Source of the DNA: Methanomicrobia archaeon DTU008
GTDB taxonomy: Archaea; Thermoplasmatota; Thermoplasmata; Methanomassiliicoccales; Methanomassiliicoccaceae
Length of the DNA: 41,711 bases
Assembly (NCBI GenBank): GCA_001512965.1
Contig: LFRW01000035.1
Coordinates: 136,303-178,013, forward strand
Direction of reading: 5' to 3'
Shown: positions 8,879-13,068 of the stretch, piece by piece
Layout of the letters: each line of letters begins with the position of its first letter
How positions within the stretch are numbered: the stretch's first letter is position 1
Notes under the pieces: generated by a model
The model's input: the letters and a program-made list of their open reading frames with translations, nothing else
What the model was told of the DNA's origin: nothing
Databases searched by the model: none
Made by a program: the position numbers and the translations under genes

Positions 8879-10669
8879 ATGTGCGGCATCGTCGGATACG
8901 CCGGTGGGCGGATGGCAGTGGACATCCTGCTCGATGGACTGAAGCGACTTGAATACAGGGGCTACGACTCGGTGGGCGTAGCGATCGCCTCCGAAGGGCT
9001 GAAGGTCTTCAAGGATAAGGGGGAGATGTCCAAGATCGAGCCCCTCATACCTCGTTGGAACGGACAGATGGGTATCGGCCACACCCGCTGGGCGACCTGC
9101 GGCAGGCCATCGAAGGAAAACGCCCATCCGTTCGTGGACTGCACCGGACGCATCGCCCTGGTGCACAATGGCATCATCGAGAACCACCTCGAGCTCAGGA
9201 AGCAGCTGGAGGAAGAAGGGCATACGTTCACATCCGAGACCGACACGGAGGTGCTGGTCCATCTGATGGAACACTACTATGACGGAGACGCCCATGCCAC
9301 CCTGCGCGCCGCACTGTCCAGGGTGAAAGGCAGCTATGCCGTCGCCGCCATGGTCGAAGGGGATGGCCACATAGTGGTCGCCAGGAAGGAGAATCCCCTG
9401 GTGATCGGCGTCGGCGTCGGGGAGAACATGGTGGCGTCGGACGTGACGGCAGTCCTTGGCCTGACTAACAAGGTAGTGTACATCCAGGAGGGGGAAAGCG
9501 CCATAGTCTCCGCCGACGGGATATCGATCTTCGATGCCCAGGGCAGCACGGTAGACAGGCAGCCAACCCCCATCACATGGACGGTGGAGGACGCCGAGAA
9601 GGGCGGTTTTGAACATTTCATGCTCAAGGAGATATACGAGCAGCCCGCCGCCATCCACAACTCCCTGCTAGGCAGTCTGGACGAGATCTATGCCGGCGCG
9701 GTCATACCCGACATCGATGTCAGCTCGGTGAAGCTGGTGGCATGCGGGACATCCTATCATGCCGCCATGGTGGGCAAGTACGTGATCGAGGATCTTGCCC
9801 GCTTGCCTACCACGGTGGAACTGGCATCGGAGTACCGCTATTCCCCCGGAACAGGGGAATGCCCTTTCACCGTCCTGCTGACGCAATCGGGGGAGACGGC
9901 CGACACTCTGGCAGCTGCGAGGGAGGCCCGCCGGAGAGGGTGCCGGACATTGGCCGTGACGAATGTGGTGGGAAGCACCATATCGCGAGAGGTCGACCAT
10001 GTGTTCTATACCAATGCAGGCCCCGAGATCGGCGTGGCGGCCACCAAGACCTTCACCACGCAGCTCATCGCCATGTACCTGCTCGGCCTGCGGTTGGGAG
10101 CCATGAGGCAGACCATAGACAGGACGAAGGTGAGGCACCTGTCCACCGAGCTGCGCTCCATGCCCCGTTATGTCAGCGGTGTGCTGGACCGGGCTTCACA
10201 GATCGAGGAAGTGGTGGAGATGCTGGTGGACGCCAGAGACATCTTCTACCTGGGCCGCAACATCAATTACCCCACCATGCTGGAGGGTGCGCTCAAATTG
10301 AAGGAGATCTCATACATCCACGCAGAAGGCTATGCGGCGGGTGAGCTCAAGCATGGTCCCCTTGCCTTGTTGGACGCCTCCACTCCGGTGGTCGCCGCCT
10401 GCGTGAACGATCACACTCGCGAGAAGATGCTGGGCAACATCTCGGAAGTGGCGGCGAGGGACTCGCCAGTCCTGGGCATAGGTGTGGAAGGGGATCGTGA
10501 GCTGGCTGCCATCACCGACGCCATGATCGGCGTCCCACGTGTTCCGCCAATCCTAAGTCCGGTCCCGCTGACGGTGGTGCTGCAGCTCATCGCCTATTAC
10601 GTGGCGAAGAAGAAGGGGTGTTCCATCGACAAGCCGCGAAATCTGGCCAAGAGCGTCACCGTGGAGTGA
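8879..10669 (+). CDS. glmS: Glutamine--fructose-6-phosphate aminotransferase (isomerizing)
   Basis: This 596-residue enzyme forms glucosamine-6-phosphate from fructose-6-phosphate and glutamine. The N-terminal class II amidotransferase domain begins MCGIVGY with the nucleophile Cys2. The sugar-isomerising half contains two SIS domains, with signatures such as VACGTSYHAA and LLTQSGETADTL, and the C-terminus ends KPRNLAKSVTVE as in the family. The length is typical. The ATG follows the glmU-like TAG without a gap, so the two form an operon. Glucosamine mutase (GlmM), which would connect them, is not in the window. Confidence 0.96.
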   Translation: MCGIVGYAGGRMAVDILLDGLKRLEYRGYDSVGVAIASEGLKVFKDKGEMSKIEPLIPRWNGQMGIGHTRWATCGRPSKENAHPFVDCTGRIALVHNGIIENHLELRKQLEEEGHTFTSETDTEVLVHLMEHYYDGDAHATLRAALSRVKGSYAVAAMVEGDGHIVVARKENPLVIGVGVGENMVASDVTAVLGLTNKVVYIQEGESAIVSADGISIFDAQGSTVDRQPTPITWTVEDAEKGGFEHFMLKEIYEQPAAIHNSLLGSLDEIYAGAVIPDIDVSSVKLVACGTSYHAAMVGKYVIEDLARLPTTVELASEYRYSPGTGECPFTVLLTQSGETADTLAAAREARRRGCRTLAVTNVVGSTISREVDHVFYTNAGPEIGVAATKTFTTQLIAMYLLGLRLGAMRQTIDRTKVRHLSTELRSMPRYVSGVLDRASQIEEVVEMLVDARDIFYLGRNINYPTMLEGALKLKEISYIHAEGYAAGELKHGPLALLDASTPVVAACVNDHTREKMLGNISEVAARDSPVLGIGVEGDRELAAITDAMIGVPRVPPILSPVPLTVVLQLIAYYVAKKKGCSIDKPRNLAKSVTVE

Positions 10670-11036
10670 CCTTTCGAAGTCCCGGATGCGTCTGGACGGG
10701 GCGGCGCTTCCAGCCCGGGCCCTAGGTAGGCGGATGGCAAGATGGGGCTCACATGCCCCTTCGCTTCGTCCGTGTAGCCTCCATGGGTCATGAGCAGAAT
10801 GGCAGGTGCACCTGACCCGATGATGCTAAGAGGAACGTGGGTCGCTAGGCTACCGGGCCTTCACATGTCATCGACCGATGCCATGTCCCGCTCTCCAGCG
10901 TGGGCGATGGCATCTAGGTCTTCATCCGCTGCACCGAACGGACGGCGGCATGGCGGTCCATGATGAAGGAGCCGTCCGCGGTCGGGGACATGCCCGCGTA
11001 CTTCGTCGCGTCATGTCCTTCTACCGATCGCGATGG
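10670..11036. other. Intergenic stretch without a recognised gene
   Basis: About 370 bp lie between the convergent glmS and CDIN1-like genes. A short hairpin GGGGC-TCACAT-GCCCC lies at about 10744-10759 but lacks a T-run. No ORF looks like a protein, and no conserved SRP RNA, RNase P RNA or tRNA motif was seen. Confidence 0.4.
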
Positions 11037-11840
11037 TCAGGCGTGAGGGCTTTGAGGCAGTTCTTCTGGGCAGAAATCATCCCCTGCTTTCTGACAGTTC
11101 ATGTCGCACAGGGAAGCATCGATTATCTCGATGCCGGGCGGGCAGTCCAGGTTGTCAACGTGCCCGAACCAGTACACCACCACGCCGGGGCCGAACATTT
11201 CAACATACTGGGCAAGCTGGCCGCGTATGTTCTTGTTGAACTCTATCCTGTCTCCGAAGGAGGCTTTGCTCTCGATCCAGTTGATCGTCCATCCGTTGAG
11301 CCTGATGGGTTCGGTAAGGAGGCAGTCAGGCGTCTTGGAGTACTTGCCCCTAAGGTCGTTCTCGGTGTGATAGGTGAGCTCCTGTTCGTCCAGCCACTGC
11401 TGGAGCTTGGCCTCTCCCCACTTGCCTCTCTTGAACTGCACCTCGTTCCCCTCGGGGGAATAGATGGTGTCAGCGGCCGTGATCTCCTCGATCTCCTTCC
11501 TGAGGCGAGGATCGCTTATCTGTTCTGGTTCGCGCACGTACTTCCAAAACTGCTTCTTGGAGAAGCCGTTCTCTTGGAACAGAAGCAGACCTGTGAGGAT
11601 AGGCGGGAACCGCCATCGTTTCGCTATCGACAATAGACTGGAGCCAGCCTTCCATTCCCTGAGCAGTCTGGGAGCATTACGCTTCACCACGTGATAGCGT
11701 TTGGTCGCATCCCTCACCGTCTTCTGGGTGTAGATGACGTTTAATAGCTCTTCATCAAGGCCGGTCTCCTTGGCGAGTCGTTCAACATCGGAGTACTCGT
11801 TCAACTCATCATATATGGCCTTGAACTCTTCGTACTTCAT
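11037..11840 (-). CDS. TPD-motif nuclease-like protein, archaeal homolog of CDIN1/C15orf41
   Basis: This 267-residue protein has an N-terminal helical region (about 1-115) that resembles one or two helix-turn-helix domains. The C-terminal part carries the TPD motif (170-172, in KTPDCLL), W-I-E-S-K at 188-192 and QYVEMFGPGVVVYWFG at 211-226. These are the signature blocks of human C15orf41/CDIN1, and the D ... ExK pattern is that of a PD-(D/E)xK nuclease related to Holliday-junction resolvases. A strong TATA box stands upstream. It is monocistronic and diverges from the zinc-ribbon membrane protein gene. The DNA or RNA substrate is unknown, and the nuclease assignment is inferred from family and motif. 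Confidence 0.85.
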   Translation of the reverse strand: MKYEEFKAIYDELNEYSDVERLAKETGLDEELLNVIYTQKTVRDATKRYHVVKRNAPRLLREWKAGSSLLSIAKRWRFPPILTGLLLFQENGFSKKQFWKYVREPEQISDPRLRKEIEEITAADTIYSPEGNEVQFKRGKWGEAKLQQWLDEQELTYHTENDLRGKYSKTPDCLLTEPIRLNGWTINWIESKASFGDRIEFNKNIRGQLAQYVEMFGPGVVVYWFGHVDNLDCPPGIEIIDASLCDMNCQKAGDDFCPEELPQSPHA

Positions 11841-12019: not shown

Positions 12020-12664
12020 GTGGTGACATTGGTAACTATTCCGTATCTAGCAAAGAACGCCGGGCCGGAGTGGCTGCCCCTGGCGGCAGCGCAGGGAAGG
12101 GAGTCCGCATTCTGGGGGCAGGTGGCCCTGCTGCTCATGGCCGCGGTCCTGCTCATCGCCGGGGTCGCCAGCATGATGGCTGGTGAGTATTCCATAGGAG
12201 TTTACACGATCATCGCATCCGTGGTCAACCTCATACTCTATGCCATGATGCCCAGCACCGTGTTCGCGCCCATGGACCAGGGACGGTTCCGCGAGGCCAG
12301 CGACAGGTTGCTCATATGGGGCGTCCTTGCCCTGCTCTTCGGCATCGTGGGTGGGATCGCGCTCCTGATCGCTTACATCCGGTTGCAGGATGTGTTCCAG
12401 CCCCAGTATCAACAGTATCCTCCTGGGCAGTACTATGAACACCCTCGATATCAGCAACCCCGATATCAACCGGCGCCTCCGCCCTATCAGGCGCCCCCTA
12501 AGGTCGAGGAAGAGATCGTCCCGGCAGAAGTGGAGGAAGCATCGCAACCCGAACCGGAGCCCGAACCTCCCCGCAAGGCGGAGATGACCAGATGCAGGAA
12601 TTGCGGTGCGCAATATCCTTCGTTCATGAGGAACTGCCCCAATTGTGGCGCTCCTCGCAGTTAA
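12020..12664 (+). CDS. Membrane protein with C-terminal zinc ribbon
   Basis: The protein has 214 residues. Three hydrophobic segments lie at about 33-52, 58-77 and 98-119. They are followed by a Pro/Gln/Tyr-rich and then Glu/Pro-rich linker (about 125-185) and a C-terminal zinc ribbon with CRNCG ... CPNCG (Cys192, 195, 206, 209). Such membrane-plus-zinc-ribbon proteins are common in Thermoplasmata, but their role is unknown. It starts at GTG 12020; an immediately following GTG is equally possible. Its TAA overlaps the stop codon of the convergent UPF0248 gene. Confidence 0.75.
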   Translation: MVTLVTIPYLAKNAGPEWLPLAAAQGRESAFWGQVALLLMAAVLLIAGVASMMAGEYSIGVYTIIASVVNLILYAMMPSTVFAPMDQGRFREASDRLLIWGVLALLFGIVGGIALLIAYIRLQDVFQPQYQQYPPGQYYEHPRYQQPRYQPAPPPYQAPPKVEEEIVPAEVEEASQPEPEPEPPRKAEMTRCRNCGAQYPSFMRNCPNCGAPRS

Positions 12665-12918
12665 GGAGTGCCTTCCACGATCACTTCCTCCCTATCCACA
12701 TAGAGGGCCTCGCCGTCCAGTTCTATCAAGCGTATGCGATGGTAGGGGATCCTGCTCTCGGCAGTGGTGAAGAAGGACCTTTCCAGGGCGACTATCTCCG
12801 AACCAGAGATCGTCCTTCTATCCCCCGGAGCTCCCCGGTGCAAGTAAGTTATCCTCGCATCCTCTAGCCTGCCCCTATGCCACTTCAGTTCGTTGAGCAC
12901 TTCGCGAGGGAAGACCAT
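12661..12918 (-). CDS. UPF0248 (DUF504) family protein
   Basis: Starting at ATG 12918, the protein has 85 residues. It carries the family blocks LNELKWHRGRLEDA, YLHRGAPGDRRTISGSEI and RSFFTTAESRIPYHRIRLIE, typical of the short archaeal UPF0248 proteins. I preferred this internal start because family members begin a few residues before LNxLKW. In-frame ATGs at 13029 and 12990 would add up to 37 residues that do not resemble the family. Function is unknown; it has been noted near RNA-related genes in other archaea, but nothing here confirms that. It is divergent from the adenine deaminase-like gene and convergent with the zinc-ribbon gene. Confidence 0.82.
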   Translation of the reverse strand: MVFPREVLNELKWHRGRLEDARITYLHRGAPGDRRTISGSEIVALERSFFTTAESRIPYHRIRLIELDGEALYVDREEVIVEGTP

Positions 12919-13068
12919 GGTCCGTTCACTGTCCGCGAGGCACTTGAAACCTTGCCCTTCCTCATGCGTCGATGCCTCCGACCACCACATCCTCTCAGGC
13001 GCTGGTAGGCATGGCTCGAGCGACATCATCGGAAAGCTTCATCATCGTTCCCCTCTCATAGAATTATC

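Follow-up and report, generated by a model that had tools for sequence, protein, structure and literature searches.

A CDIN1 orthologue in a Methanomassiliicoccus genome: predicted nuclease fold, distribution and association with a membrane Cas4-like gene

The archaeal orthologue of the human protein CDIN1 (C15orf41) is encoded on the minus strand of the window, the whole stretch of 41,711 nucleotides analysed here. It is probably a metal-dependent DNA nuclease of genome maintenance, which ancestrally would have acted alongside a membrane Cas4-like nuclease. The host of the window is a methane-producing archaeon, a species of Methanomassiliicoccus. Archaeal CDIN1 orthologues older than codanin-1, the partner of the animal protein, were already known in 2020, when C15Orf41 orthologues were reported from Euryarchaeota and the family was found to be older than codanin-1 (PMC7092493). 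The original prediction of a CDIN1 homologue free of codanin-1 in archaea is congruent with that report.

The TPD gene and its predicted fold

The open reading frame at 11037-11840 is, judged by its sequence, a genuine member of the TPD family. Pfam assigns it one domain, TPD (PF14811, the C15orf41/CDIN1 family), at residues 110-240 (E = 1.3e-46, 158.3 bits, against a curated cut-off of 27 bits). No NCBIfam model matches the protein. The dN/dS of the gene against five close relatives is 0.055-0.14, which indicates strong purifying selection and excludes a chance open reading frame. The protein is 45-91% identical to most of its relatives, and the closest named relative among the matches listed is that of Methanomassiliicoccus sp. 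UBA345 (91% protein identity). The gene and the parts of its product are:

11037..11840, minus strand: coding sequence of the TPD/CDIN1 orthologue (P0001), ATG start, 267 aa, from the PF14811 match and dN/dS
11514..11840, minus strand: N-terminal all-helical domain, residues 1-109 (AlphaFold2, pLDDT 96-98, helices only)
11121..11513, minus strand: TPD domain, residues 110-240, PD-(D/E)xK nuclease core (Pfam and AlphaFold2)
11412..11414, minus strand: E143, putative first acidic ligand, in a core helix (kept in all 28 aligned rows and in all 50 of a larger set)
11325..11327, minus strand: D172 of the TPD motif, putative metal ligand (invariant in the alignments)
11265..11273, minus strand: E190-S-K192, the (E/D)xK motif (K192 invariant; position 190 is E or D in every row)
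11205..11219, minus strand: Q208-x3-Y212, a QxxxY-type motif in helix 198-216 (both residues invariant in every row)

The homology to CDIN1 that was originally proposed is confirmed by the Pfam match, by structural matches to mimivirus CDIN1 and TPD proteins and by a published BLAST comparison of human and archaeal C15Orf41 (E ~1e-34; PMC7092493). The three sequence blocks on which the proposal was based (KTPDCLL, WIESKASFG and FGPGVVVYWFG) are all present in the translation, and its residue numbers for D172, E190 and K192 are correct. Like the CDIN1 family, the window protein contains the TPD domain, the TPD and (E/D)xK motifs and a helical N-terminal domain joined to a nuclease core, and it is of similar length. 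The genetic context is different. The codanin-1 partner is known from eukaryotes and none is known in archaea, whereas archaeal relatives encode TPD together with a membrane Cas4-like nuclease.

The AlphaFold2 model of the protein (pLDDT 94.2, pTM 0.87) contains the PD-(D/E)xK core that a structure prediction had been expected to show. Residues 1-123 are helical and are followed by a helix at 129-152 with E143 inside it. Two strands, 173-181 and 184-192, come next, with D172 just ahead of them and E190 and K192 at their end. A further helix (198-216) holds Q208 and Y212, and a strand follows at 219-223. As modelled, this order of helices and strands is the PD-(D/E)xK arrangement, with the acidic, D and (D/E)xK residues in register on the core elements. 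The proposed catalytic residues are conserved among archaeal members. Across 28 diverse proteins, E143, T170, P171, D172, W188, K192, Q208, Y212 and several glycines are invariant. RecB/Cas4-type nucleases are characterised by a Q-x3-Y motif in the helix that follows ExK. D172 is likely the counterpart of D196, an active-site residue of human CDIN1 (PMC7261414). By analogy with the human protein, in which an HTH is predicted (PMC7261414), the N-terminal helical domain may be HTH-like.

In Foldseek searches, the model matches giant-virus TPD/CDIN1 proteins with E-values of 1.2e-14 to 5.8e-9 and TM scores of up to 0.78. Two of the three best matches are named, as 'TPD domain-containing protein' and 'CDAN1-interacting nuclease 1'. 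These mimivirus-type proteins (BFVD A0A167RJG3, A0A2L2DJP4 and the unnamed A0A8F8SNR0) are CDIN1-like and resemble archaeal TPD in structure; the two best match it over the whole length (TM 0.72-0.78). They are encoded by giant viruses and are 15-21% identical to the window protein.

Matches to solved structures are much weaker. A sequence search with the window protein finds none, and a search with the TPD profile finds T7-type endonuclease I only at E>0.5. Foldseek against the PDB gives a best E-value of 0.1, with none below 0.001. The top match is RPB5, which is restriction-endonuclease-like, and the top weak matches also include BbvCI, DdmD, AF1548, NucS and the phage 15-6 Holliday junction resolvase. 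A PD-(D/E)xK fold is not by itself proof of catalysis, since RPB5 and others share the fold and are inactive. TPD could accordingly be a catalytically weak or inactive nucleic-acid-binding scaffold, with its residues persisting for a metal-dependent structure. RPB5 is non-catalytic, and activity has repeatedly gone undetected in human CDIN1, alone or with the codanin-1 C-terminus, on linear DNA, flaps, Holliday junctions and RNA (PMC7261414; PMC13370696). The catalytic-motif residues, however, are strictly kept across very diverged members, with position 190 varying only from E to D, and a scaffold appears unlikely.

Gene neighbourhood and the Cas4-like gene

In the window genome the TPD gene sits alone, as was predicted. 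It is flanked by the following features:

8879..10669, plus strand: glmS, convergent neighbour (Pfam SIS and GATase; kept in 49 loci)
10670..11036, no strand: gap of 367 bp from the glmS stop to the TPD stop, the site of the Cas4-like gene in L051, L052 and L053
11882..11895, minus strand: TATA-like promoter element ATAGTTATAAAAGG, with TATA at -51 from the ATG
12020..12664, plus strand: divergent neighbour with hydrophobic segments and a C-terminal zinc-ribbon-like motif (kept in 41 loci)

The gene had been described as having a strong promoter and as lying next to genes of unknown function, and the second description is half right. The TATA-like box CAATAGTTATAAAAGG at -51 keeps its position and sequence in three close relatives (L051, L052 and L054) and is diverged in L053; in other genera, CGATAtgTTTAA stands in its place. 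With this position-conserved box, a strong promoter is plausible. The product of the divergent neighbour, a membrane/zinc-ribbon protein, is uncharacterised, and its zinc-ribbon matches are weak and below the cut-off. The convergent neighbour is glmS, which is also convergent in relatives, where it lies beyond the Cas4-like gene. At 12661-13029, the minus strand of the window encodes a small MJ1316-domain protein (RNA cyclic group end recognition domain), which is kept near TPD in 26 loci.

In 44 loci, a gene for a Cas4-like protein of about 330 aa lies directly downstream of TPD on the same strand, with a gap of -60 to +150 bp. Examples are:

L051:4260-5258: Cas4-like gene, with 44 further loci besides this one
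L014:425-1459, minus strand: Cas4-like gene
L108:6789-7814: Cas4-like gene

The Cas4-like protein contains Cas4 and PDDEXK_1 domains (Pfam) and keeps the motifs G-x-P-D, E-x-K and Q-x3-Y. It has four conserved cysteines (C36, C331, C334 and C340) and about four hydrophobic segments at residues 60-180, predicted transmembrane helices that are inserted ahead of the nuclease core. Its predicted fold is closest to Cas4, Dna2 and MGME1 (Foldseek E 5.5e-5). TPD shares the layout of D, ExK and Q-x3-Y with the Cas4/RecB-type nucleases, of which this operon neighbour is a member. Unlike them, it lacks conserved Fe-S cysteines and is matched by neither the Cas4 nor the PDDEXK_1 model, and the profile-profile comparison of TPD with the Cas4-like neighbour is insignificant. 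No description of the membrane Cas4-like protein was found in the solo-Cas4 survey (PMC5704561). In an incomplete search of the literature, no earlier report was found of an operon of TPD with a membrane Cas4-like gene, or of its loss.

On the TPD tree, the presence of the Cas4-like neighbour requires about 6 changes, compared with 37 when the labels are shuffled. Such a pattern fits an operon that arose early and was later lost in places. It occurs in only part of the Thermoplasmatota, and losses that left TPD in place have happened several times, so the Cas4-like partner is not required. The Cas4-like gene is also present in genomes of family f6 that have no TPD.

The relatives L051, L052 and L053 carry the Cas4-like gene between TPD and glmS. 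In the window, the corresponding stretch (10670-11036) is single-copy and has no Cas4-like remnant and no detectable similarity in blastn and tblastn searches. No RNA gene was found in it, and the window genome has no other Cas4-like copy anywhere. The clean absence of a gene that is present in relatives of the same genus explains why TPD sits alone here. Its isolation is most simply a derived state that resulted from recent loss of the Cas4-like gene.

The recurrent neighbour also bears on the type of nucleic acid. TPD could be an RNA-processing nuclease, as is suggested for animal CDIN1 by the similarity between codanin-1 and CNOT1; an RNA-metabolism analogy has been proposed for the animal complex (PMC7092493; PMC11911400). 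The analogy does not carry over, since codanin-1 is not reported from archaea, and the Cas4/Dna2/MGME1 fold of the recurrent archaeal neighbour belongs to a class of DNA nucleases. An RNA substrate is unlikely, and the reading as a DNA nuclease is preferred.

Distribution and the Holliday-junction question

TPD is present in 115 of the 120 genomes of the order, and in all 73 near-complete ones it is single-copy. Across the phylum, it is present in 160 of 293 sampled genomes, many of which are metagenome-assembled. In this sample, families f6 and f7, which belong to the same class, gave no TPD match. GTDB contigs contain 511 stretches that encode TPD, and the best 80 loci of a contig scan are nearly all Thermoplasmatota-like. 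TPD behaves as a core chromosomal gene. A mobile, viral or plasmid origin is rejected, as no TPD relatives are present in IMG/VR or in the phage and plasmid collections. The same absence of phage and plasmid matches, the presence in 73 of 73 near-complete genomes and the lack of any PADLOC defence model matching the gene also reject a known anti-phage defence gene.

Two departures from the common form are seen. Families f24 and f32 (L033, L034, L045, L046 and L047) have a diverged, longer TPD with an N-terminal extension, which is Arg/Lys/Asn/Gln-rich in L033 and L045. This form contains RTPD or NTPD and WIDAK motifs, in which D replaces E190, and shares 21-24% identity with the window protein. 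In family f5, one genome (G280) contains two TPD copies, L031 and L032; nearly all other genomes contain one.

The distribution also bears on a possible link to histones. Animal CDIN1 is bound to codanin-1, which in turn binds the histone chaperone ASF1 (PMC11911400), and chromatin or histone handling could by this route be the ancestral role of TPD. Histone-fold proteins, however, were found in 22 of the 293 genomes and in none of the window's order, where TPD is near-universal. The histone-chaperone context of animals is thus not ancestral in this clade, for which a histone link is rejected, and as an ancestral role of TPD it is highly improbable.

The original prediction described the protein as Holliday-junction-resolvase-like, and this description is not supported. 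Pfam finds no Hjc domain in the protein. When its profile is compared by hhalign with that of Thermoplasmatota Hjc, the match is insignificant (probability 0.25%). Solved resolvases match it in structure very weakly, and other PD-(D/E)xK proteins stand among them. TPD shares the active site of the superfamily with archaeal Hjc (PF01870), namely an acidic helix residue, D and ExK, but differs in its invariant QxxxY motif and its extra N-terminal helical domain.

A separate question is whether TPD serves this archaeon as its Holliday junction resolvase, in place of an Hjc lost from the clade. Hjc is absent from the window genome (Pfam and a Thermoplasmatota-specific profile), and none of the genomes examined from families f1, f3 and f4, which include the window's own, gave a match to it. 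The same specific profile finds Hjc in most f2-type genomes (E 1e-63 to 1e-81), and Hjc is enriched in the other, host-associated clade of the order (PMC7883539). RuvC is also absent from the window genome. The lack of Hjc in the clade and of RuvC in this genome leaves room for TPD as a resolvase there. No earlier report linking TPD with Hjc loss was found in the incomplete literature search. In control genomes, TPD without an Hjc match is seen in M. acetivorans, and Hjc without a TPD match in M. jannaschii, H. volcanii and S. acidocaldarius.

The mutual exclusion suggested by these control genomes is rejected over the 293 genomes of the phylum. Both genes are present in 132 genomes, TPD only in 28, Hjc only in about 111 and neither in 22 (one Hjc-positive genome is omitted, with negligible effect). 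The presence of TPD and that of Hjc are independent (Fisher p=0.88), so TPD is no general substitute for Hjc. The insignificant profile comparison with Hjc also stands against a resolvase, as does the finding that human CDIN1 did not cut junctions (PMC7261414). Replacement of Hjc by TPD in this archaeon is doubtful.

Proposed mechanism and meaning

The reading favoured here is that of a housekeeping DNA nuclease that would take part in repair. Substrate binding would fall to the N-terminal helical half of the protein. Mg or Mn would be coordinated by D172 and E190 together with E143, and the water that attacks the substrate would be placed by K192. Q208xxxY212, an invariant motif of a type also present in RecB/Cas4 nucleases, suggests that the enzyme works on DNA ends, flaps or single-stranded branches, and speaks less for the symmetry of a classical resolvase. 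The ancestral TPD may have cooperated with the membrane-anchored Cas4-like nuclease encoded in the same operon, and the window strain would since have lost the latter.

A bolder proposal, put forward tentatively, is that TPD and the membrane Cas4-like nuclease ancestrally formed a pair of DNA-processing nucleases at the archaeal membrane, with TPD handling Holliday junctions or branched DNA in the Hjc-less clade of the Methanomassiliicoccaceae type. If this were true, an intermediate of DNA recombination would be the substrate on which human CDIN1 ancestrally acted.

Mutations of human CDIN1 are found in congenital dyserythropoietic anaemia type I, yet studies of the protein have demonstrated neither an activity nor a substrate. 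The archaeal orthologue, which has no codanin-1, is a simple stand-alone protein in which a biochemical activity may be found. For this clade, the lack of histones speaks against an ancestral role tied to them, and the Cas4-like neighbour and the loss of Hjc point to the processing of DNA ends or branched DNA.
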